Positions 11,587 to 22,184 of a stretch of DNA of 22,523 bases are shown one piece after another (position 1 is the stretch's first letter; each line of letters starts with the position of its first letter). The position numbers and the translations under genes are program-made. A model generated the notes under the pieces. That model was not told the origin of the DNA, did no database searches, and worked only from the letters and a program-made list of their open reading frames with translations. Source of the DNA: a virus; IMG/VR virus record IMGVR_UViG_3300000553_000363, positions 1 to 22,523 of that record; one strand, written 5' to 3'.

Positions 11587-11588
11587 CC

Positions 11589-11606
11589 AAAGGGCGCAAG
11601 CCCTTT
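11589..11606 (+). terminator. Hairpin after small early gene
   Basis: AAAGGGC-GCAA-GCCCTTT is a perfect 7-bp stem that starts 2 bases after the stop codon. Only the TTT within the stem supplies a T-run, so termination may be weak. Its last two bases belong to the 27-bp repeat R1. Confidence 0.5.
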
Positions 11607-11631
11607 GAAACCAGTTACTTGTTGTCGGGCG
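11605..11631 (+). repeat. 27-bp upstream repeat, copy R1
   Basis: TTGAAACCAGTTACTTGTT followed by G and TCGGGCG. Copies R2 and R3 stand upstream of the next unit and the orphan unit. The core AACcAGTtACTtGTT (11609-11623) is an interrupted palindrome matching its own reverse complement at 12 of 15 positions, so a dimeric protein could bind it. It sits 38 bases upstream of palindrome op1. Confidence 0.75.
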
Positions 11632-11668
11632 TGGCTTTGTGGGGGCGTGATCAAGCGCGCTGTTTAGC

Positions 11669-11688
11669 GTTCCACTTAGGCGTGAAAC
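11669..11688. promoter_or_regulatory. Palindromic operator-like site op1
   Basis: GTTCCAC-TTAGGC-GTGAAAC (one mismatch in the arms), preceded by TTTAGC. It ends exactly at the first base of the -35 of promoter B. Related sites are op2-op5. The arms keep the same sequence from copy to copy while the central six bases vary, as expected for a DNA-binding site. Confidence 0.6.
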
Positions 11689-11718
11689 TTTACTTAACGA
11701 CCTTGTGTCAGCTATAAG
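11689..11718 (+). promoter_or_regulatory. Rightward promoter B
   Basis: TTTACT (11689-11694), 18 bases, TATAAG (11713-11718), with the TCAGCTATAA block shared with promoters A and C. It directly abuts op1 and precedes the first paralogous gene. Confidence 0.65.
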
Positions 11719-11725
11719 TATTACA

Positions 11726-11747
11726 TGGCAGGCAATTCCGCTTGTCA
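11726..11747 (+). ncRNA. 5'-terminal mRNA hairpin B
   Basis: TGGCAGGC pairs with GCTTGTCA (8 bp including two G-U pairs) around loop AATTCC, starting at about +1/+2 of the promoter B transcript. Pairing is kept although the stem differs from hairpins A and C. Confidence 0.55.
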
Positions 11748-11782
11748 TTAACGCAGTACTTCATTTTATGAGGAGAAGCAAA

Positions 11783-12427
11783 ATGGCTACTAAAGCCCTA
11801 GCAGTAGAAGTAAAAGATCAGATCACCAGTCTAAAAGATGGTGCTTACAAGCAAGCAGTAGCAAGCGACAAAATGCGTGGCGTTGCTCGCTATGTTTTAA
11901 CCACTTGTAAGGGTTTCCCTGACGAAGTAGGCGACGAAGTCAAAGAGCAGTTATATGATGGCTATCGTTTACGCTTCAACGAAACCAATCCCGCCAAGCG
12001 GTACGCAGTTGTCAATGATCATTACCTATTGATTGACGGCTCTAATCCTGATCTTGAAAAGGAAAAGGAGATTGTGCAAATTGGTACTGATTATGTGTTT
12101 GCGTTTAGTCAGCAAGAGTATGGCAAGCTAAAGACTAGCGATCCATACAAGCACGCAGTCATCAAGGAATGGCGTGATAAGGTAAACACTTATTGCTCTA
12201 ATCGCTTAGGTGATCTCAAGCGTCAAGCTCGTACGATCCTCAATGAGGGTAAACAGAAAGAGCGCGGTGCTACATTAGATTTTGCTCACCGCATTATTGA
12301 AGTATTCAAAGGTGATCAGGGTTTAATTCAGAAGTGCAAAAATGCTTCCAAGCGCGGTGATACCACTGCTGATGAGAAGCGACTGAAGTTAGCCATTGAC
12401 GCCTTTATGGTTCAATGGAATAAGTAA
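11783..12427 (+). CDS. Early protein of unknown function, paralog 1
   Basis: With the ATG at 11783 (AGGAG 7 bases upstream) this is a 214-residue soluble protein. It shares a chain of motifs in the same order with the next gene: ITSLKD (14-19), EVKEQ (52-56), LRFNETNPA (63-71), SQQEYGKLKTSDPYKHAV (109-126), EWRDK (129-133), SNRLGDL (139-145) and RGDTT (191-195). The pair is therefore a tandem duplication with long divergence. It is basic, mostly helical after residue 105, and has no membrane segment or catalytic motif I can name. It has its own promoter, 5' hairpin and strong terminator, so it is a single-gene unit probably made early in quantity. A nucleic-acid or host-factor binding role is possible; unproven. 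Confidence 0.85.
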   Translation: MATKALAVEVKDQITSLKDGAYKQAVASDKMRGVARYVLTTCKGFPDEVGDEVKEQLYDGYRLRFNETNPAKRYAVVNDHYLLIDGSNPDLEKEKEIVQIGTDYVFAFSQQEYGKLKTSDPYKHAVIKEWRDKVNTYCSNRLGDLKRQARTILNEGKQKERGATLDFAHRIIEVFKGDQGLIQKCKNASKRGDTTADEKRLKLAIDAFMVQWNK

Positions 12428-12432
12428 GACCT

Positions 12433-12468
12433 AGCCCTGCCAGTCCTAGACTGGTGGGGCTTTTTTTT
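12433..12468 (+). terminator. Strong intrinsic terminator after paralog 1
   Basis: AGCCCTGCCAGTC pairs with GACTGGTGGGGCT (13 bp, two G-U pairs, loop CTA), followed by eight T residues. It starts 5 bases after the stop codon. Confidence 0.92.
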
Positions 12469-12494
12469 CGCCCTGATTTTCACAAGCCCCCCAT

Positions 12495-12521
12495 TTGAAA
12501 CCAGTTACTTGTTCTCGGGCG
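12495..12521 (+). repeat. 27-bp upstream repeat, copy R2
   Basis: It differs from R1 in a single base (C in place of G before TCGGGCG). It lies directly after the terminator of paralog 1 and 27 bases before op2, matching the order in the preceding unit. Confidence 0.8.
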
Positions 12522-12548
12522 CGTCCGTGTGTGTGTGGCTTAGATAGC

Positions 12549-12568
12549 GTTCCACTACCCCGTGAAAG
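12549..12568. promoter_or_regulatory. Palindromic operator-like site op2
   Basis: GTTCCAC-TACCCC-GTGAAAG preceded by TAGC. It ends one base before the -35 of promoter C, the same arrangement as op1 and promoter B. Confidence 0.6.
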
Positions 12569-12569
12569 C

Positions 12570-12599
12570 TTGATTAACAGTCTAGCTATCAGCTATAAC
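12570..12599 (+). promoter_or_regulatory. Rightward promoter C
   Basis: TTGATT (12570-12575), 18 bases, TATAAC (12594-12599), with the TCAGCTATAA block shared with promoters A and B. It drives paralog 2. Confidence 0.65.
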
Positions 12600-12606
12600 T
12601 ATCATA

Positions 12607-12627
12607 TCGGATGCAATTACGCACCGA
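12607..12627 (+). ncRNA. 5'-terminal mRNA hairpin C
   Basis: TCGG(A)TGC pairs with GCACCGA (7 bp with one bulged A) around loop AATTAC, at the same distance from the -10 as hairpins A and B. The stem sequence differs from both, with pairing preserved. Confidence 0.55.
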
Positions 12628-12644
12628 TTAACAACGGAGGACAT

Positions 12645-13223
12645 ATGTCCATTAAAACTGAAATAACATCCTTAAAGGATGCATCGTATCAAGGTTGTAT
12701 CAGCGCTGAACGTGGTCAGACTATCGGTCAGTATATTTATAACGTATGCCCTATGTTCCTTGAATCTGTGCCCGAAGAGGTTAAGGCTCAGATTGAAGAG
12801 GGTCAAATGCTCCGATTCCATGAGAATCATCCAGCACAGTATTACACGACAGATTATGTCCCATGTAGTGCTGATACTAAGGGAGCATTTAAAGTGGACA
12901 TCAATGTAGTGATGTCTCACTCCCAGCAAGAATTCGGACGTATGAAATCCGAAGACCCTGTAAAGCATGGCGTCCATGCCAAATGGCGCAAGGATTGGGG
13001 GACATACAAATCCAATCGTATGGCAGACCTACGCAAGTATGTCAAAGCATACAAGGATTTACTCGAGGGTAAAACCACTACCCGTGCCAGCACCAAGGAT
13101 TTTAGCGTATGGCTCAAAGAGACTGTGGACACAATCAAGACCCGAGCTAAGACAGCGAAGGGAAGAGGGGACACTACTGTGAATGACTCAGTAGTCAATG
13201 CGATAGTGAAGGCTATCAAGTAG
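12645..13223 (+). CDS. Early protein of unknown function, paralog 2
   Basis: With the ATG at 12645 (GGAGG 4 bases upstream) this is a 192-residue protein homologous along its length to the preceding gene. Shared motifs in order are ITSLKDASY (7-15), EEVKAQ (44-49), LRFHENHPA (56-64), SHSQQEFGRMKSEDPVKHGV (91-110), KWRKD (113-117), SNRMADL (123-129) and RGDTT (174-178). It is shorter, lacking some of the C-terminal part of paralog 1. It has its own promoter, 5' hairpin and terminator. The upstream region is duplicated with the gene, so the duplication unit was about 0.9 kb and included regulation. No known family or catalytic residues are recognised. Confidence 0.85.
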   Translation: MSIKTEITSLKDASYQGCISAERGQTIGQYIYNVCPMFLESVPEEVKAQIEEGQMLRFHENHPAQYYTTDYVPCSADTKGAFKVDINVVMSHSQQEFGRMKSEDPVKHGVHAKWRKDWGTYKSNRMADLRKYVKAYKDLLEGKTTTRASTKDFSVWLKETVDTIKTRAKTAKGRGDTTVNDSVVNAIVKAIK

Positions 13224-13230
13224 GACTAGG

Positions 13231-13255
13231 GGGAGGCGAAAGCCTCCCTTTTTTT
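13231..13255 (+). terminator. Strong intrinsic terminator after paralog 2
   Basis: GGGAGGC-GAAA-GCCTCCC stem-loop followed by seven T residues, 8 bases after the stop codon. Confidence 0.92.
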
Positions 13256-13266
13256 GGTTGTCCAAA

Positions 13267-13293
13267 TTGAAACCAGTTCTTTGTTTTCGCGCG
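13267..13293 (+). repeat. 27-bp upstream repeat, orphan copy R3
   Basis: TTGAAACCAGTT is identical to R1 and R2; the remainder (CTTTGTT, T, TCGCGCG) is slightly diverged. It again directly follows a terminator and precedes an op palindrome, but no promoter of the A-C type or paralogous gene follows. Confidence 0.7.
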
Positions 13294-13361
13294 CGTGAGC
13301 AAGCAAGGACTTTGTATCATTTAGAATTATCAGATTTGATAGCGCAAGGTCGCTATTTAGC

Positions 13362-13381
13362 TTTCCACGATATAGTGGAAA
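13362..13381. promoter_or_regulatory. Palindromic operator-like site op3
   Basis: TTTCCAC-GATATA-GTGGAAA is a perfect 7-6-7 palindrome. The 16 bases CTATTTAGCTTTCCAC are shared with op4. A hairpin ATAGCG/CGCTAT stands directly before it. Confidence 0.65.
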
Positions 13382-13746
13382 TTGAATTACACATAGTCCC
13401 GACGTGACTAGCTTGCCGTTATGTGTTTGACCAAAAAAGTTCTAAAACCGACTCGGAATTTTTACTACGTCTAGAATTTTTTTATTTAGTAAATTCAAAG
13501 ACTTACAACGAAAATTCTAAATTCCAATCGGATTAGCAGAGGATGGGGGGTAAAAACATAAAAAAGGTGGGAGAGCAAGGCTTGTTTTCCCAATGCAAAA
13601 ATGTAACGCAAGGTATTGTCCTCTCTCAAAATTTATTGGAACATAGAATTTTTCTTCTTTTCTTTTATTTATTTAATAATAATAATAATAATATATCTAT
13701 ATAAATCATACACTTAACCCCTCAAAAAACATTAGAAATAAAGTTC

Positions 13747-13775
13747 CAGACTTTAGTAGACTATTGGTTTATACT
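13747..13775 (+). promoter_or_regulatory. Rightward promoter D
   Basis: CAGACT (13747-13752), 17 bases, TATACT (13770-13775). The -10 is identical to promoters E and F; the -35 keeps only GACT. It lies 56 bases before the HTH-repeat gene. Confidence 0.5.
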
Positions 13776-13781
13776 TGGAAT

Positions 13782-13800
13782 ATTCCGCAAAAAACGGAAT
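13782..13800 (+). ncRNA. 5'-terminal mRNA hairpin D
   Basis: ATTCCG pairs with CGGAAT (6 bp) around loop CAAAAAA, beginning 7 bases after the -10, i.e. at the expected first base of the transcript, just as hairpins A-C. Confidence 0.5.
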
Positions 13801-13831
13801 TTAATTTCCAAACTAACAAGAAAGGTAAACC

Positions 13832-14191
13832 ATGTTTACAAATCAAATTTATAAGTTCAAGAATGAATCACGCACTATGAAGCAGTGGGCACAAAAGACA
13901 GGCTTATCAGTAGATGTGTTGCGCAGTCGTTGGAACAAGGGCAAACGAGGCGATAGTTTATTTGCACCAATCCCTGACCAAGATGAGCAGAACAGTTATT
14001 GCGTATACATCACGCATGACACAGGCGATGGAGAAGAAACAAAGACTCTCAAAGAATGGGCACAGGAGTTCAACATGAACCCTAAAACTTTAGCCGCAAG
14101 GTATGGCAAAGGTGAAAGAGATAGCCACGTATTACTACGACCAAAAGGAGTTCATGCCAAAGTCATTAAACAAAGACATCGTATCAGCTAA
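13832..14191 (+). CDS. Protein with two HTH-like repeats, putative DNA-binding regulator
   Basis: This 119-residue basic protein contains two internal repeats of about 32 residues: TMKQWAQKTGLSVDVLRSRW (15-34) followed by NKGKRGDSLFAP, and TLKEWAQEFNMNPKTLAARY (72-91) followed by GKGERDSHVLLRP. The shape (WA, then a turn, then L-x-x-R, G, D) is like the small helix-turn-helix repeats found in phage regulatory and homing-associated proteins. AAAGG precedes the ATG. The gene has its own promoter and lies beside the cluster of palindromic sites, so it is the best local candidate for a protein that binds them; that link is inference. The C-terminus is basic (KVIKQRHRIS). Confidence 0.65.
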   Translation: MFTNQIYKFKNESRTMKQWAQKTGLSVDVLRSRWNKGKRGDSLFAPIPDQDEQNSYCVYITHDTGDGEETKTLKEWAQEFNMNPKTLAARYGKGERDSHVLLRPKGVHAKVIKQRHRIS

Positions 14192-14237
14192 AAAAGTCAT
14201 ATACCAGCTTGATTTATATGTCAAGTTGTGGTATACT
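14190..14237 (+). promoter_or_regulatory. Rightward promoter E with A-tract upstream element
   Basis: AAAAAAGTCATATACCA (14190-14206), TTGATT (14209-14214), 17 bases, TATACT (14232-14237). The whole arrangement, including the A6 and GTCATATA upstream block, is repeated at promoter F. The first base overlaps the stop codon of the preceding gene. Confidence 0.75.
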
Positions 14238-14295: not shown

Positions 14296-14315
14296 TTTCC
14301 ACGGTGTCGTGGAAA
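14296..14315. promoter_or_regulatory. Palindromic operator-like site op4
   Basis: TTTCCAC-GGTGTC-GTGGAAA, a perfect 7-6-7 palindrome in the leader between promoter E and the 66-aa gene. Position downstream of the promoter would suit roadblock repression, or an RNA hairpin. Confidence 0.65.
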
Positions 14316-14363: not shown

Positions 14364-14564
14364 ATGGGCAAGTTAAAAAACGCAATCATCCAAGCAAACG
14401 AGGAAGCATTTAGAAGAATCTTTGCGCAAACGAATATCGGGGAAAATGCGCATCCACGCATGAGTGGACTCGAAGATACGGATGAGGCATGGGCGCAGTA
14501 TGAGATGGAGTTCAATGAATGGTTGGATAACTACGAGAAATCATTTGGAGAGAACCATGATTGA
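14364..14564 (+). CDS. Small acidic helical protein
   Basis: This 66-residue acidic protein starts MGKLKNAIIQANEEAFRRIF, is mostly helical and rich in W, E and D at its C-terminus (DEAWAQYEMEFNEWLDNYEK). AAAGGAG precedes the ATG. It is the first gene after promoter E and op4, and its end overlaps the next start by 8 bases. Acidic small early proteins of phages often bind and block host DNA-binding proteins; that is only a possibility here. No family recognised. Confidence 0.7.
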   Translation: MGKLKNAIIQANEEAFRRIFAQTNIGENAHPRMSGLEDTDEAWAQYEMEFNEWLDNYEKSFGENHD

Positions 14565-15151: not shown

Positions 15152-15242
15152 GTGGATGGTGCAAATCATCTTAGACCCCACGATAGAGTGGAACATTAAA
15201 AAGCTTGGCGCATATGAAAGGAGAAGAAGATATGGGTTATAG
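15138..15242 (+). CDS. 34-aa small protein (candidate)
   Basis: This reading frame starts 6 bases after AGGAG and overlaps the previous gene by 14 bases and the next by 11. It begins MKTFKWMVQIILDPTIEW and ends with a basic stretch (YERRRRYGL). The N-terminus is amphipathic and the tail basic, like a small membrane-associated peptide. The DNA for DPTIEW holds CCAC-GATAGA-GTGG (15178-15191), close to op3 but with shorter arms. It fits the dense overlap pattern here, yet its short length keeps it uncertain. Confidence 0.5.
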   Translation: MKTFKWMVQIILDPTIEWNIKKLGAYERRRRYGL

Positions 15243-15666: not shown

Positions 15667-15702
15667 AACAAATTAACCGCCAAGAAGTACCTAGTGTCAT
15701 AT

Positions 15703-15751
15703 AAAAAAGTCATATATCACCATTGACTCAAATGTAAAGTTGTAGTATACT
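15703..15751 (+). promoter_or_regulatory. Rightward promoter F with A-tract upstream element
   Basis: AAAAAAGTCATATATCA (15703-15719), TTGACT (15723-15728), 17 bases, TATACT (15746-15751). Spacer and upstream block match promoter E (shared GTCATATA and AAGTTGT-G). It would start the micropeptide-DUF3150-MoxR-VWA transcript at about 15758. Confidence 0.8.
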
Positions 15752-15774: not shown

Positions 15775-15852
15775 ATGTTCAAGTTGTTTTTGTTTTTGGT
15801 GTGGTTTTATATAGCGATCCACGTCGTAGTGGATTTCAATTTAATCAAGTAA
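15775..15852 (+). CDS. 25-aa membrane micropeptide leading the MoxR module
   Basis: This 25-codon reading frame stands alone between promoter F and the DUF3150-like gene. AGGGAG lies 6 bases before the ATG and its TAA overlaps the AAAGGAG ribosome site of the next gene, as real phage genes do. The peptide begins MFKLFLFLVWFYIAIHVVVD and ends FNLIK, i.e. one hydrophobic segment covering almost its whole length. The op5 palindrome lies inside it. It could be a genuine membrane partner of the module, or a leader peptide controlling it. Confidence 0.6.
   Translation: MFKLFLFLVWFYIAIHVVVDFNLIK
15817..15834. promoter_or_regulatory. Palindromic operator-like site op5
   Basis: ATCCAC-GTCGTA-GTGGAT, a perfect 6-6-6 palindrome preceded by TAGCG as in op1 and op2. 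It lies in the transcribed leader of the MoxR module, inside the micropeptide frame. Confidence 0.55.
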
Positions 15853-15863
15853 AGGAGAAGTAA

Positions 15864-16778
15864 ATGGAAATGAATCTAGAAATGCCTGAGCATTTAATCT
15901 CATTGGCGAGTAGTGCGGTGCTAGTCAGCGTTGACATCAGCGTGTGGTCAGCAACCAAACAGGATCGGGGTATCAGTGATGAGGTTACTACCTCAAAGAA
16001 CGCTGATAAGTCCGCGGGCAGGTATGTTAAGAATCTCTTAGCTAATCATCCCAAGCACAAGGCAGTCGTTAACTATCGGCAAACCATCTATAACTGGCTT
16101 CAGCGTCGGACTTACAGATGGAATCAATCCCAACAATTACTGCCAAGTATTGATGTGCCTAAATTCAAGCAAGAGTATCACGAGCATGAAATAGCTTTCC
16201 ATGCCCTAGTGGATTCATTGGTAACGGACTATGACTCAATCGTGTCGGACATGGCTTTCAAGCAAGGTGATATGTTCAATCGTGCAGACTATCCAAGTGC
16301 AGAGCAAGTCAAGACGAAGTTCAGCTTGAATCTGTATGTATCAGAAGTGCCTACGAATGACTTTCGCTGTGGCATAGCTAAGGACATCGCTGATGATTTG
16401 TTTACAACACTCAGTAATCAAGCGCAAGGGATCATAGATTCGATTGCCCAAGAACAGTCAGAACGCATGGTCGAGGTGATGGAGTCCATTAGTCATTGTT
16501 GCGGTGTAGATGAGTCAGAAGTAAACGGCGAAGTGCGAACCAAGCGCAGAAAGATTTACGAGGGAACGCTACAAAAAGCTAGAGATTATGTCGAAAGTTT
16601 TAAGCGATTTAATCTTAAGAATGATTCAGGATTAGAGTTGGCTCGTGCGTCGCTAGAGAAAGTTTTAAATGGTGTAAAGGCAGAGGACATCCGTGATTCC
16701 GATGCGGTGCGCCATCATGTTAAGGAAGGGATAGACGATATTCTTTCCAAGTTCGGTAGTTTCAATTCCACGATGTAA
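15864..16778 (+). CDS. DUF3150-like protein of MoxR module
   Basis: This 304-residue protein begins with a hydrophobic strand-like segment (SSAVLVSVDISVWSATKQDR, about 17-35), has a long helical middle and carries the stretch MFNRADYPSAEQVKTKFSLN (137-156) followed by VPTNDFR (162-168). I recognise this combination (early V-S-V-x-I-x-x-W, later DYPS...F...VP..DFR) from the DUF3150 group in phages and plasmids, whose genes often stand next to a MoxR/CobS-like AAA ATPase. That is exactly the context here. The C-terminal half is helical. AAAGGAG precedes the ATG. Its role is unknown; an adaptor or substrate of the ATPase is likely by context. Confidence 0.72.
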   Translation: MEMNLEMPEHLISLASSAVLVSVDISVWSATKQDRGISDEVTTSKNADKSAGRYVKNLLANHPKHKAVVNYRQTIYNWLQRRTYRWNQSQQLLPSIDVPKFKQEYHEHEIAFHALVDSLVTDYDSIVSDMAFKQGDMFNRADYPSAEQVKTKFSLNLYVSEVPTNDFRCGIAKDIADDLFTTLSNQAQGIIDSIAQEQSERMVEVMESISHCCGVDESEVNGEVRTKRRKIYEGTLQKARDYVESFKRFNLKNDSGLELARASLEKVLNGVKAEDIRDSDAVRHHVKEGIDDILSKFGSFNSTM

Positions 16779-16803: not shown

Positions 16804-17877
16804 ATGTCTAAATTAAATTTCAATTCCACAGTAACCATCAACGAGTTACGCAAAACCATTCCTACAATAGGCTCATACCTCACACCAATCATACTGTCTG
16901 AACCTGGTTGTGGTAAGACCTCTCTGTTATCTATGATTCGTGAGGATCTTGGCGAAGACTATGACTATATCTATGTAGACTGCCCTGTCAAGGATATGTC
17001 GGACATTGGTATGACTATTCCAAACCATGCAACCAAGTCGTTGGAATACTATGTCTCATCTCTCTTCAAGCTTGACTCTCCTAAGCCAAAGGTCATCTTG
17101 CTTGACGAGTTCATGAAGTCTCCCAAGCTATTGCAAGTTATCTTCACCCGTCTGATGTTGGAAAGAATGGTAGGCGACGAACCACTACCTCGTGGATCAA
17201 TAGTTTTCGGGACATCAAACAATGCAAGCGATGGGGTAGGCGACACAATGCTTGCTCATGCTGGTAATCGTGTGTGCATCATGGAGATGAGTAAGCCAAC
17301 AGTTAATGAATGGTTAGAGTGGTCATCAGCTAATGGTATCTCTCGTGTTGTTCGTGCTTTCGTTGCGATGTTCCCTCGGACATTGGCAAGTTACAGAGAT
17401 GGCAACCAAGATGACAATCCGTATGTGTTCAATCCTAAGAAGACTGCCCTGTCATTCTGCTCTCCTCGTTCTCTTGCGAAGTGCGATGTGATCGTTAAGA
17501 ATAGAGATTACTTAGGCGATAACGCAACGATGGTCGCATTGGCTGGCACTATCGGTGCAAGCGGTGCTGGTGATATGTCAGCGTTCCTATCGTTGGAGAA
17601 AACTCTAGTCGATGTGAAGGACATCGTGAAGTCTCCAGATAGCATTAAAGTTCCCGAAGAAATCTCAGCGCAGTTAATGATTATGTTCCAAGCGGTAGAC
17701 GTGCTAGAGACACAGGATGAGCTAACGAAGTTCATGACATTCGTTAATAAGATTCCTAGTTCAGAGGTGCAAGCGGTGTTCTTTACTATGATGATGCGCA
17801 ATACAAAGGCAATCAAGTTGGCTCGCAACAATCTGCAGATTGCAGAGTGGGCTAAGAATAACCATGAGTTGTTTTAA
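16804..17877 (+). CDS. MoxR-type AAA+ ATPase
   Basis: This 357-residue AAA+ protein has Walker A EPGCGKTS (33-40), Walker B VILLDEF (97-103), sensor 1 GTSNN (136-140) and an arginine region HAGNRV (152-157). The HAGNRV and following EMSKPTVNEW are as in the MoxR/CobS-like branch. The C-terminal part is helical and less conserved. MoxR ATPases act as hexameric remodelling chaperones together with a VWA-domain partner encoded nearby; the VWA gene is two genes downstream. TAAGGAG precedes the ATG. The DUF3150-like gene precedes it by 25 bases, so they are probably co-transcribed from promoter F. The substrate is unknown. Confidence 0.88.
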   Translation: MSKLNFNSTVTINELRKTIPTIGSYLTPIILSEPGCGKTSLLSMIREDLGEDYDYIYVDCPVKDMSDIGMTIPNHATKSLEYYVSSLFKLDSPKPKVILLDEFMKSPKLLQVIFTRLMLERMVGDEPLPRGSIVFGTSNNASDGVGDTMLAHAGNRVCIMEMSKPTVNEWLEWSSANGISRVVRAFVAMFPRTLASYRDGNQDDNPYVFNPKKTALSFCSPRSLAKCDVIVKNRDYLGDNATMVALAGTIGASGAGDMSAFLSLEKTLVDVKDIVKSPDSIKVPEEISAQLMIMFQAVDVLETQDELTKFMTFVNKIPSSEVQAVFFTMMMRNTKAIKLARNNLQIAEWAKNNHELF

Positions 17878-17901
17878 TTAACTATCCACGAGGTGATGGA
17901 A

Positions 17902-18096
17902 ATGGAAATAAGTTATAGCGAAGCGTTCTTAATCGTGTGGGCATCAGTGATGACTATTCTGTATGTAATCACTAGGCACGAAGCAGAGCATTTTAAACGG
18001 CATACCTTATACAAACTAAAGCAAGTGCATGATGGCAACGCAAAGATTGTATGTGGTGAAGATTTTATAGCTATCAAAATGAATGGAGAAGAATGA
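17902..18096 (+). CDS. One-helix membrane protein between ATPase and VWA genes
   Basis: I choose the ATG at 17902 because GAGGTGAT, unusually extensive complementarity to the 16S rRNA end, lies just upstream. This yields a 64-residue protein with one hydrophobic segment (EAFLIVWASVMTILYVIT, about residues 7-24) and a basic, then mixed soluble tail. Earlier in-frame starts (GTG 17893, ATG 17896) overlap the ribosome site. It ends in overlap with the VWA gene start. Placed between a MoxR ATPase and its VWA partner, it may anchor the complex to the membrane; this is inference. Confidence 0.72.
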   Translation: MEISYSEAFLIVWASVMTILYVITRHEAEHFKRHTLYKLKQVHDGNAKIVCGEDFIAIKMNGEE

Positions 18097-19394
18097 TGCA
18101 AGTCAAAAACAAACAGGAAGTCCGCTTAAAGAAAGCGCATATTGCGCTCATGAAACACCACGAGACTGCGCTCTATTCGGGCGTGATGTTGATGGGTAAG
18201 AGTGAGGTGAGTGATAATCTTTTTACGGCATACACCGATGGTGTAAACAAGCGTTACTCTCGCCCATTCCTAGAAACTATCATAAGCGAACCCAAGCTTA
18301 GAGGTCTGGTGTTACATGAGAATCTTCATGTAGCATTGAAACAAATCCCTCGTGGTAAGGATATGTGGAAGGAAGATGCCAAGATCGCAAACATGGCGGC
18401 GGACTTTGTGGTGAACGACATCATAAAGAATATTACAGGAAAGGTGGCTGGTGGCAACGAGCAGTTGGTGGAGTTGCCTGATGGTGCGCTATACGATCCG
18501 TTCTTTCATAACTGGAATATGCGTGAGGTCTATAACTATATCCGTAAGGAGAATCCTCAACGTCAGAAACCACAGTCAGGGGGGTCTAGTAATGGTGGTC
18601 AGGAAGAAGACTCAGATAGCAGTCCATCATCTAGTGGAAAGCAAGATAAGGGTGATGGAAAGATTACTGCCAATGGTAAGGAATACGACATGGGCGGTGA
18701 TGGCTTTGACGAACACGACTGGGAGAACATGAGCGCCGAAGAGGTCAAAGAGTTGAACGACAAAATTGACCGAGCCTTGCGTGAGGGCGGTATGTTAGCT
18801 GGTCGCATGGGTGGGAAGATTCCTAGATCAATCAGCGATCTGCTTGAACCCAAGATAGATTGGCGAGAAGCGTTGCGTGAGTTTGTGTCATCTACTATGA
18901 AAGGCAAGGATGAGTTCACATGGCGCAGAATGAATAAGCGTCAGATGGCGAATGATATTTATATGCCAAGCATGGAGAACGAAACTATCGGCGAGGTGGT
19001 CGTTGCTATTGATACGTCGGGTTCGATTGGTGGTAAAGAACTTACCGAGTTTGCTACGGAACTGGCATCCATTTGCGATCTTGTGTCGCCTGATGCGGTG
19101 CGTGTTCTGTGGTGGGATACCGACGTGCATGGTGAGCAGTTGTTCAAGTCCGACCAGTATCAGTCTATTGCATCGCTACTAAAACCATTAGGCGGTGGTG
19201 GTACTCATGTGGGGTGTGTTAGCAAGTATATCAATGAGAAGAAAATTAACGCAGAAGCGGTCATCGTGTTTACTGATGGCTATGTGGAAAGCGACATCGA
19301 GTGGAATATCGTTCCACCAACCCTGTGGATGATTACTCAGAACAAAGACTTGGACATTCCATGCGGTAAGAAAGTCATGTTTGGAGACGAATGA
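18096..19394 (+). CDS. Metallopeptidase-like / VWA-domain protein (DUF2201-like)
   Basis: This protein of 432-433 residues has two recognisable parts. Using numbering from an ATG at 18093, the N-terminal region has HENLH (75-79), an HExxH zinc-peptidase motif. A Gly/Ser/Asp linker spans about 158-195. The C-terminal VWA-like domain has an intact MIDAS: DTSGS (307-311), GGGGTH (367-372) and FTDGY (393-397). This pairing matches what is known of the putative metallopeptidase plus VWA-like family (PF13203/PF09967, from memory). Two adjacent ATGs, 18093 and 18096, follow GGAG; 18096 has the better spacing. In MoxR systems the VWA protein guides the ATPase. An extra protease-like domain suggests substrate cleavage or metal-linked remodelling. 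Confidence 0.87.
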   Translation: MQVKNKQEVRLKKAHIALMKHHETALYSGVMLMGKSEVSDNLFTAYTDGVNKRYSRPFLETIISEPKLRGLVLHENLHVALKQIPRGKDMWKEDAKIANMAADFVVNDIIKNITGKVAGGNEQLVELPDGALYDPFFHNWNMREVYNYIRKENPQRQKPQSGGSSNGGQEEDSDSSPSSSGKQDKGDGKITANGKEYDMGGDGFDEHDWENMSAEEVKELNDKIDRALREGGMLAGRMGGKIPRSISDLLEPKIDWREALREFVSSTMKGKDEFTWRRMNKRQMANDIYMPSMENETIGEVVVAIDTSGSIGGKELTEFATELASICDLVSPDAVRVLWWDTDVHGEQLFKSDQYQSIASLLKPLGGGGTHVGCVSKYINEKKINAEAVIVFTDGYVESDIEWNIVPPTLWMITQNKDLDIPCGKKVMFGDE

Positions 19395-19606: not shown

Positions 19607-20609
19607 ACTAACTGAGATCACTAAGACTCAGAAACCTTATCGTGGAACTACTAATCGTTTTCCTATCGGCAAGAGAACTCATAATACAAAGTGTTTTTAC
19701 TTAGAAGAAAGGAATGGCGAGAAGGTATATGTCATCACCTATGGTCATAGTCATAAAGAACACCATCACACAAAGGAAGAGTATGAAGCAAACAAAGGCG
19801 CAATCCATTGTAGAGAGTGGGACACCGATGAATCTACTCGCTATGTCAGCTATACACCTATACCTAGAGAGATGGGCATTGTGCGTTCGGACAATACCTT
19901 TGAGTTTACTGGTAATGGTTACGGGCAAGGCGAGAATATGCTACTTAGTCAATGGAGTCTTGGCACGTTCTTTAGGAGTTCACGACATGGTGGAATGGTA
20001 TATAGGCAGAACTACTCTGATCCTCTGTTCCATCCAATCTTCAAAGGTATGAGAGTTTATTGCGATGATATGAAAGTGCATGAGAGTAGCGAGTATACGT
20101 TGACAGGTCGTCGTGTCAGTCGCAAAGATGCCAATGAATTTCTTAAGCAATACGAAGATTTTTATACCATCAATGAGACGATGTTCAAAGCGATGGAGTG
20201 GAAATCCTTTATGGATACTGTGCTTGATGTCAGCAGTCAGATGGGGATTGACTACGATAAGAATTGGTATATGGCTAACGAAGATAAGTGTCGTCTATTA
20301 GAGTTTGCTAACAAGTCCTTGAATGATGCGCCGTTAGATAGCTGCGTGTGCTTTCTTCTCGCCTATGATATTAAGAATATGTATGCCAATGCGAGAGGTA
20401 ATGCAAACCCTAGCAAAGGTAACTACTACGCTAGAGAGCATCAGCTAGACGTTCTGTTCAGTAATCTCAAACGCAAGCTAAACAAAGAGTTGTATAGCAA
20501 GAACCCGACAGTCATGAAACCCATAGAGCATGAGGCTGGTAAGTATTACCCACCTAGCGAGTGGGGTGTGGAAGTTTATGTTGATGGCAAAGAAGTCGAA
20601 CAATACTAA
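19584..20609 (+). CDS. Phage protein of unknown function (341 aa)
   Basis: With the ATG at 19584 (AAAGGAG 7 bases upstream) this is a 341-residue soluble protein beginning MRALEWNRLTEITKTQKPYR. The first third is beta-rich (CFYLEERNGEKVYVITYGHS), with histidine-rich HKEHHHTKEEY at about 57-67; the second half is helical and includes FKAMEWKSFMDTVLDVSSQM. There is no membrane segment and no catalytic signature I can name. It is in the same gene string as the MoxR module and may work with it or be a separate early protein. Confidence 0.72.
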   Translation: MRALEWNRLTEITKTQKPYRGTTNRFPIGKRTHNTKCFYLEERNGEKVYVITYGHSHKEHHHTKEEYEANKGAIHCREWDTDESTRYVSYTPIPREMGIVRSDNTFEFTGNGYGQGENMLLSQWSLGTFFRSSRHGGMVYRQNYSDPLFHPIFKGMRVYCDDMKVHESSEYTLTGRRVSRKDANEFLKQYEDFYTINETMFKAMEWKSFMDTVLDVSSQMGIDYDKNWYMANEDKCRLLEFANKSLNDAPLDSCVCFLLAYDIKNMYANARGNANPSKGNYYAREHQLDVLFSNLKRKLNKELYSKNPTVMKPIEHEAGKYYPPSEWGVEVYVDGKEVEQY

Positions 20610-20620
20610 GGAGAAAGCAA

Positions 20621-21559
20621 ATGAAATACATAGTAGAAGGATTCGCTACTGAACAGCTCAGTGAATCAATCGAGAACTCACCATGTAAGAGACTCATACA
20701 AGAACTAAACTTTAAGTATGGTCTCAAGGTATTAACTAAAGAAGAACCTCATCCGCTTATGCGTCGTCAATATGATACGTTCTTACTCACCGAATCTACT
20801 GGTGCGTTTGTAGTAGCAAAGGTGTGGATAGATAAGGAAGATGGGCATGATGTGTATAACTATCGTAGTCCATTCTATCGTAAGGATCGTGGATCAGACA
20901 CCGCAGACCGAGAGACTATCCATAGTAAGAAACTCTCAACGCTGATGGCTACTCTAAAAAGGCAGGATGTTGTTCCACCTATTGATGAAATCATGCGTAG
21001 AAGTCATACGAATAATTTTGAGATCGGCAAGAGCCAGCTTGAATCTCATCATGGCAACACTTATAAAAATAATAAGCTAGATGTCGAAGACATACATGAT
21101 TTATTGCGAGCAGTTATTAGGGAAACTCCTAATACATTAGACCTAGAAAAATGTAAAAAAGAACTTGACAAATTAGATCAGATAGATAGAATCAAGGAAG
21201 AGAAAGAAAAAGATATTGAAAGATTCTTTACAGAGTTCTATGCGATAGGCGCAGATAGTTTGAATCATTTAGTTATTGGCACAGTTAAGCGAGTGAAGAT
21301 GGTAGACAAAGATAGTCATATGTTTGAGGTAGTCAAACCCTTTGTGCGTGTGAAAGATTTATCTAATCACGAACATCTACAACCCATCATGCTGATGCAC
21401 AAAGTATACCACGAAGGTAAAAACGTAGAGAAGTTTTACGCAAATTACATTCCACAGTCTAGTGGATACCTAAATGACCTCGATGTAATCAATGCTACCT
21501 ATACTCGTGTAGATGAATATAACCTGACATGGATGCTCACACCATGCTCAACAATCTAA
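20621..21559 (+). CDS. Phage protein of unknown function (312 aa)
   Basis: This 312-residue protein starts MKYIVEGFATEQLSESIENS after AAGGAG. An N-terminal alpha/beta region (YDTFLLTESTGAFVVAKVWI) is followed by a charged coiled-coil stretch (CKKELDKLDQIDRIKEEKEK, about 179-198) and a C-terminal beta-rich region (VIGTVKRVKMVDKDSHMFEV). No known motif or membrane segment is seen. It follows the 341-aa gene by 11 bases and overlaps the next gene. The coiled coil suggests self-association. Confidence 0.72.
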   Translation: MKYIVEGFATEQLSESIENSPCKRLIQELNFKYGLKVLTKEEPHPLMRRQYDTFLLTESTGAFVVAKVWIDKEDGHDVYNYRSPFYRKDRGSDTADRETIHSKKLSTLMATLKRQDVVPPIDEIMRRSHTNNFEIGKSQLESHHGNTYKNNKLDVEDIHDLLRAVIRETPNTLDLEKCKKELDKLDQIDRIKEEKEKDIERFFTEFYAIGADSLNHLVIGTVKRVKMVDKDSHMFEVVKPFVRVKDLSNHEHLQPIMLMHKVYHEGKNVEKFYANYIPQSSGYLNDLDVINATYTRVDEYNLTWMLTPCSTI

Positions 21560-21879: not shown

Positions 21880-22184
21880 TGGCATCAACCCCCGAAGCGA
21901 AAGTTAAAGATAAGGTTAAGAAGTTTTTAAAGTTAAATGATATTTATTTCACTATGCCGTTTACTGCTGGGTATGGTGCGAGTGGTGTTCCCGATATTCT
22001 TGTGTGCTATAAAGGAAAGTTCATAGCGATAGAGTGTAAGGCTGGTGGCAATAAGCCTACGGCATTACAGGCTGAACACATGAATAGGATTACACAGGGT
22101 GGTGGAATCGCAGTTGTCGTTGATGAGAATAATACTGATGCGACTATGGTGAAACTATTTAGTGACGAAGATGGGAGATGCTGA
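21879..22184 (+). CDS. Single-domain VRR-NUC nuclease
   Basis: With the ATG at 21879 (GAGGAG 8 bases upstream) this is a 101-residue PD-(D/E)xK-fold nuclease of the VRR-NUC type. It carries a helix with early E/K residues (about 6-16), GYGASGVPDILVCYKG (31-46, D39), FIAIECKAGG (48-57, E52 and K54), and TALQAEHMNRI (61-71, Q64). These are the expected D, ExK and Q positions. Stand-alone VRR-NUC proteins occur in many phages and are thought to cut branched DNA during replication, recombination or packaging. Coupling to neighbours (1-base overlap both sides) places it in the early operon. Confidence 0.88.
   Translation: MASTPEAKVKDKVKKFLKLNDIYFTMPFTAGYGASGVPDILVCYKGKFIAIECKAGGNKPTALQAEHMNRITQGGGIAVVVDENNTDATMVKLFSDEDGRC

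Follow-up and report, generated by a model that had tools for sequence, protein, structure and literature searches.

The window analysed here is the whole of a 22.5-kb virus record (22,523 nucleotides), in which the late genes (terminase, portal and head) lie on the minus strand up to 10.6 kb and the early genes are on the plus strand, starting at 11.1 kb. The early arm contains three repeated control units (Table 1), two of which lead into the genes for P0002 and P0001, and at 16804-19394 there is a gene pair encoding an AAA ATPase and a metallopeptidase/VWA protein (phrog_1297, phrog_1314). Distant relatives of the second gene of this pair occur in 724 records of cultured phages, and many of these are N4-like by name. 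This suggested virion-RNAP hairpin promoters of the N4 type, which were dropped because inspection of the lists of open reading frames by eye revealed no RNA polymerase and the promoters look sigma70-like. No homologue of P0002 or of the neighbouring 304-aa protein was found in a collection of cultured phages, and an Rfam scan of the window gave no match. The sole relative among 84,980 bacterial and archaeal species genomes was a 7.6-kb contig (L131, CAIPLJ010000099.1) in an actinobacterium metagenome bin, a weak hint at the host. Tyrosine integrase (PF00589), serine resolvase (PF00239) and ParA (PF13614) had no match in 12 long relatives, and a strictly lytic lifestyle of the lineage is likely but unproven, since the long records are possibly incomplete.

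Each unit carries a copy of a 27-bp element and a palindrome and has a hairpin or terminator ahead of it. The initial annotation had observed that this control DNA is better conserved than the coding sequence that it precedes, and the observation has held up: copies R1 and R2 differ at a single base over 27, the proteins that follow them are strongly diverged paralogues (32% identity), both units have a significant 5' leader hairpin, and the third unit has repeat and palindrome with no gene, being followed by non-coding AT-rich DNA. The pattern shared by the copies, TTGAAACCAGTTNYTTGTT, has three matches in the window against 0.06 expected, and none of the shuffles reached three. Selection on the control DNA, as had been proposed, is strongly supported, as the element is kept across relatives: 157 distinct instances (family consensus TTTGAWACCAGTTATTTGTnSTCGnGCGCG) retain its sequence in all of the half-site classes described below. 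In relatives the palindrome usually lies 50-75 bp downstream of the element, with distances peaking near 53 and 63-67; helical phasing of the two is not claimed because the Rayleigh test was weak (R about 0.33, broad). The palindrome is indeed present in all three units, as first described, but is not limited to them. The class-independent 27-bp repeat and the class-specific palindrome are distinct elements, and the three units form only one part of a more extensive putative early-gene switch in an uncultured phage family.

Table 1. Positions of predicted control elements and associated genes in the early arm of the window.
Feature	Position	Strand	Remark
Hairpin preceding unit R1	11588..11607	+	
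27-bp element, copy R1	11605..11631	+	class-independent
Operator core at P0002 promoter	11671..11686	unstranded	just upstream of -35
Predicted P0002 promoter, sigma70-like	11689..11718	+	TTTACT-18-TATAAG
P0002 5' leader hairpin	11725..11748	+	z = -3.2
P0002, candidate operator-binding regulator	11783..12427	+	214 aa; predicted recognition helix, residues 121-153
Intrinsic terminator after P0002	12433..12461	+	
27-bp element, copy R2	12495..12521	+	class-independent
Operator core at P0001 promoter	12551..12566	unstranded	
Predicted P0001 promoter	12570..12599	+	TTGATT-18-TATAAC; read from sequence
P0001 5' leader hairpin	12606..12628	+	z = -2.9
P0001, paralogue	12645..13223	+	192 aa; same SNR triad
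Intrinsic terminator after P0001	13228..13251	+	
27-bp element, copy R3	13267..13293	+	class-independent; gene-less unit
Operator core of gene-less unit R3	13364..13379	unstranded	
AT-rich non-coding region after R3	13380..13831	+	AAATTCCAA/TTGGAATTT repeats; at the same place in relatives
Predicted early promoter	14209..14237	+	TTGATT-17-TATACT
Operator core in leader	14298..14313	unstranded	60 nt downstream of -10 of promoter 14209
Operator core within ORF 14364-14564	14453..14468	unstranded	
Operator core	15177..15192	unstranded	1 mismatch
Predicted early promoter	15723..15751	+	TTGACT-17-TATACT
Operator core in leader	15818..15833	unstranded	66 nt downstream of -10 of promoter 15723
Operator core within 304-aa gene	16198..16213	unstranded	same codon in 28 loci
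Operator core within AAA gene	17181..17196	unstranded	same codon in 48 loci, 4 classes
Operator core between AAA gene and ORF 17893	17885..17900	unstranded	
Operator core within VWA gene	18623..18638	unstranded	own-class at same codon in 67/69 loci, 8 classes
Operator core within ORF 19557/19590-20609	19979..19994	unstranded	same codon in 43 loci
Operator core within ORF 20621-21559	21451..21466	unstranded	
Operator core within Hjc-like ORF	22091..22106	unstranded	1 mismatch

The palindrome, TCCAC-N6-GTGGA, is a dispersed putative operator present in about 14 copies. Allowing up to one mismatch, 14 sites occur between 11.67 and 22.09 kb, that is in the early arm, where about one would be expected by chance; the corresponding 32 strand-matches, mostly both strands of the same palindrome, compare with 2.1 in shuffles, and no exact site was found in the late half of the window. 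All 13 sites of a near-complete 64-kb relative (G003) fall inside 10.7 kb and all seven of another relative (G014) inside 10.3 kb. Pooled alignments revealed outer arms, TAnnTA at -10 to -5 and +20 to +25, that do not depend on class, and therefore the full operator is about 36 bp. The arms are symmetric around the palindromic core, the upstream arm being only moderately stronger. Within the coding sequence of the window's early genes seven sites were observed, against a mean of 0.93 in 400 synonymous-codon shuffles, none of which reached seven, and thus the protein sequence does not account for them.

The half-site differs among lineages. The sample, 80 relatives of the neighbouring 304-aa protein, yielded at least nine half-site classes among about 80 related viral contigs, namely TCCAC, CCCAC, CCCAG, TCCGT, CTCAC, TTCAC, TCCTG, TCTTG and TCTGT, each used genome-wide and all with identical geometry, always as 5-6-5 dyads; further loci add the half-sites TTCA[C/G], TTCAA and TTCGG. 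No relatives of the TCCTG and TCTTG classes were found beyond the two known. By parsimony there have been about 11 class changes on the backbone tree, and different lineages have sites at the same codon, each with the sequence appropriate to its class. The site in the VWA gene matched its own class in 67 of 69 loci, compared with a mean of 27 and a maximum of 39 when labels were permuted, the labels having been derived from whole loci that include the tested site (one of about ten per locus) and the permutation removing only part of the relatedness among sequences that are not independent. At one TCCGT-class locus (L122) the VWA-gene site reads TTCACCCAATGATGAG, which is off-class, and the AAA-gene site is on-class; a recent class switch or recombination is possible there. 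At three other loci (L132, L145 and L169) the sites mix TTCAC and TTCAG half-sites, which possibly reflects a degenerate base 5 or heterodimers of both paralogues.

Promoters, which were called as consensus matches, stand in a fixed relation to the operators. At promoters of the P0002 type the -35 most often begins 18-20 bp from the start of the operator core, a spacing seen in 76 of the 154 promoters called automatically; with the core lying just upstream of a sigma70-like -35, its right arm therefore overlaps the -35. Of the 74 TTGACT-17-TATACT early promoters, 67 have an own-class operator downstream, at about 45-80 bp, the full range of distances from the -10 being 41-97 nt, and the frequency of an operator 40-110 nt downstream of an early -10 is 0.905, compared with 0.087 at random early positions. 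Two similar early promoter regions, at 14169-14237 and 15682-15751, consist of AAAAAAGTCATATA followed by TTGAnT-17-TATACT and are conserved in relatives. A site just upstream of a -35 could also serve activation, and the core at the P0002-type promoters is centred near -48, so that P0002 might be regarded as an activator of early or middle promoters. Such a role is improbable, however, given that the operator lies downstream of the start at the 67 other early promoters mentioned above and that most sites have no adjacent promoter. A downstream site cannot easily activate but can block initiation or elongation, which, taken together with the intragenic sites, suggests an autoregulated repressor that acts by occlusion and as a roadblock.

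The gene-less unit deserves separate consideration. An element with its operator, and behind them roughly 500 bp of non-coding DNA that is AT-rich, recurs in 53 loci of many classes, and hence R3 is not a relic. No convincing promoter was found inside R3 itself. The TTGGAATTT/AAATTCCAA repeats of the AT-rich region are present in those close relatives that were aligned, and the region may be a replication origin or a leader region. This resemblance to an origin, found in all classes, and the dispersal of many palindromes across about 11 kb could be taken to mean that P0002 mainly organises, segregates or protects phage DNA in a ParB-like or nucleoid-type manner, or starts replication near R3, with any effects on transcription being secondary. 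It is unlikely that this is its main function, since the operators are fixed relative to promoters and overlap the -35 of the P0002 promoter, and since their intragenic positions are conserved to the codon. Unlike ParB-parS partition systems, moreover, there is no match to a ParA-type ATPase partner in the 12 long relatives and no match of P0002 to the ParB fold.

An HTH-repeat protein (13832-14191) had been put forward as the operator binder, and this is unlikely because a homologue was found in only 10 of 81 loci. It is the product of the first paralogous gene itself that is the likely binder. At matched backbone identity, P0002 identity for half-site distances of 0 to 5 was 0.42, 0.43, 0.35, 0.31, 0.31 and 0.28 respectively, a fall that no other early family showed, and with backbone identity regressed out the partial correlation between P0002 and half-site was -0.57 (0/500 permutations), whereas the other 14 families, including terminase and portal, gave values of -0.10 or higher. 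P0002 is the only one of the 15 gene families tested that covaries with the half-site. The AlphaFold model of P0002 (pLDDT 88.5), a monomer without DNA, contains a 33-residue helix (121-153) in which residues 132, 136 and 140 lie one helical turn apart on one face, in the same order as the bases that they track. Residue 136 tracks base 2 without exception, C being found with T, D, N or S136 (68/68) and T with K, A or G136 (20/20), and residue 132 tracks base 1, T or C going mostly with D or E132, with exceptions. Residue 140 tracks bases 4-5: a half-site ending in AC is accompanied by N140 (71/71), GT by D or T140, TG and GG by E140, AA by T140 and, in four cases, AG by G140; each rare class is represented by between one and four proteins. 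Base 5 is not fully explained, because six segments labelled AG, all of them from TTCA[C/G] loci, have SNR (N140) in place of SG. The paralogues of one genome have the same triad type. P0002 gave no Pfam match, no convincing PHROG match, no match to HTH families and none at E<0.1 to the sequences of solved structures, and its model had no fold match in PDB or BFVD, known DNA-binding proteins included.

The same covariation bears on two further explanations. As RNA, each of the sites could fold into a short stem topped by a loop of 6 nt, so that the palindromes might act as RNA hairpins in early mRNA, in processing or translational control, but this is very improbable: the operators at P0002-type promoters are upstream of the start and outside that mRNA, the loop sequences vary, and the half-site covaries with a protein helix. 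Alternatively, the sites might be recognition or avoidance signals for restriction-modification or recombination and the units mobile regulatory cassettes. In its favour, terminator, element and promoter are joined with a gene in the units, and close relatives differ in whether they possess that of P0001; nevertheless, this explanation is hardly credible, as modification or recombination signals would not be expected to keep to the early arm, to hold their positions to the codon or to covary with P0002, and no methyltransferase was seen in the tested gene families. Mobility of the cassettes would be compatible with a repressor.

From the computed sites, classes, promoter geometry and covariation we infer binding, dimerisation, repression and timing along the following lines. 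P0002, with its paralogue P0001, is probably a dimeric, sequence-specific repressor of the phage's own early region that closes the early phase. Its operator would be a palindrome of about 36 bp with invariant outer TAnnTA arms and inner 5-bp half-sites, 6 bp apart, which would define the specificity class, acting as "passwords" of protein and DNA that match within each lineage. The long helix of P0002 would read the half-site, its residues 132 and 136 lying against bases 1 and 2 and its residues 140-141 against bases 4-5. The first early genes would be expressed at once and P0002 would then accumulate. It would block its own promoters through the operator that overlaps the -35, and the main early promoters from sites a short way past the start of transcription; when bound inside early genes it would form a roadblock that closes the early phase. 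It very probably binds the approximately 14 matching early-region sites and shuts the early genes down, early shut-off being what we infer from the position of the sites. Against this reading, an immunity repressor would be superfluous in a lytic phage.

The majority of genes in uncultured phages lack a function, and here the comparison of sequences alone would give an unannotated family a DNA-binding role, define its operator to the base and yield a residue-to-base code. The chances seem evenly balanced that P0002 founds a new family, possibly with a new fold, of DNA-binding regulators in widespread, apparently non-temperate aquatic phages, that its operator-plus-roadblock regulon for early shut-off has diversified into a dozen specificity classes that exclude one another, that their specificity obeys a short colinear code (132/136/140 to bases 1/2/4-5) which metagenomes alone suffice to read, and that homotypic superinfecting phages might be silenced. 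Natural orthogonal classes of this kind would constitute a ready set of repressor-operator pairs. Dispersed operator/stoperator control is already known in temperate mycobacteriophages; meeting the same design where no genes for lysogeny are detectable points to a further use in early-gene shut-off or in exclusion among lytic phages.

A search of the literature for dispersed operators in lytic phages returned nothing relevant. In the temperate Streptomyces phage phiC31, numerous conserved and nearly identical inverted repeats across the early region go with the phage's repressor, and the present system, with its candidate repressor, may be likened to it in this respect. As far as they are described in the citing source, the promoter-terminator regulatory cassettes of T4 (Arbiol et al. 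2010, as cited in PMC4177764) are similar in being repeated units of terminator plus early promoter beside variable early genes, but differ in that the units here add a class-specific operator, a class-independent 27-bp element and the gene for a probable binder. The Cluster A mycobacteriophages (L5, Bxb1) have a repressor with operators and stoperators, the L5 repressor being an HTH protein that binds as a monomer to asymmetric 13-bp sites, oriented with transcription and mostly intergenic, in phages that are temperate (PMC6550527, PMC9283540). Both systems would have one protein with many, and similarly numerous, sites scattered through the lytic region, of which only a minority are at promoters, and in both the site consensus differs among lineages and tracks the repressor, here a candidate one. 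Membership of that system is rejected, however, because the sites here are palindromic, about 36 bp long and often intragenic, because P0002 has no detected relation to L5 gp71 and no detected N-terminal HTH, and because lifestyle probably differs, the 12 long relatives lacking integrase, resolvase and ParA matches. The likeness is retained, and the stoperator system of Cluster A is the closest working parallel.
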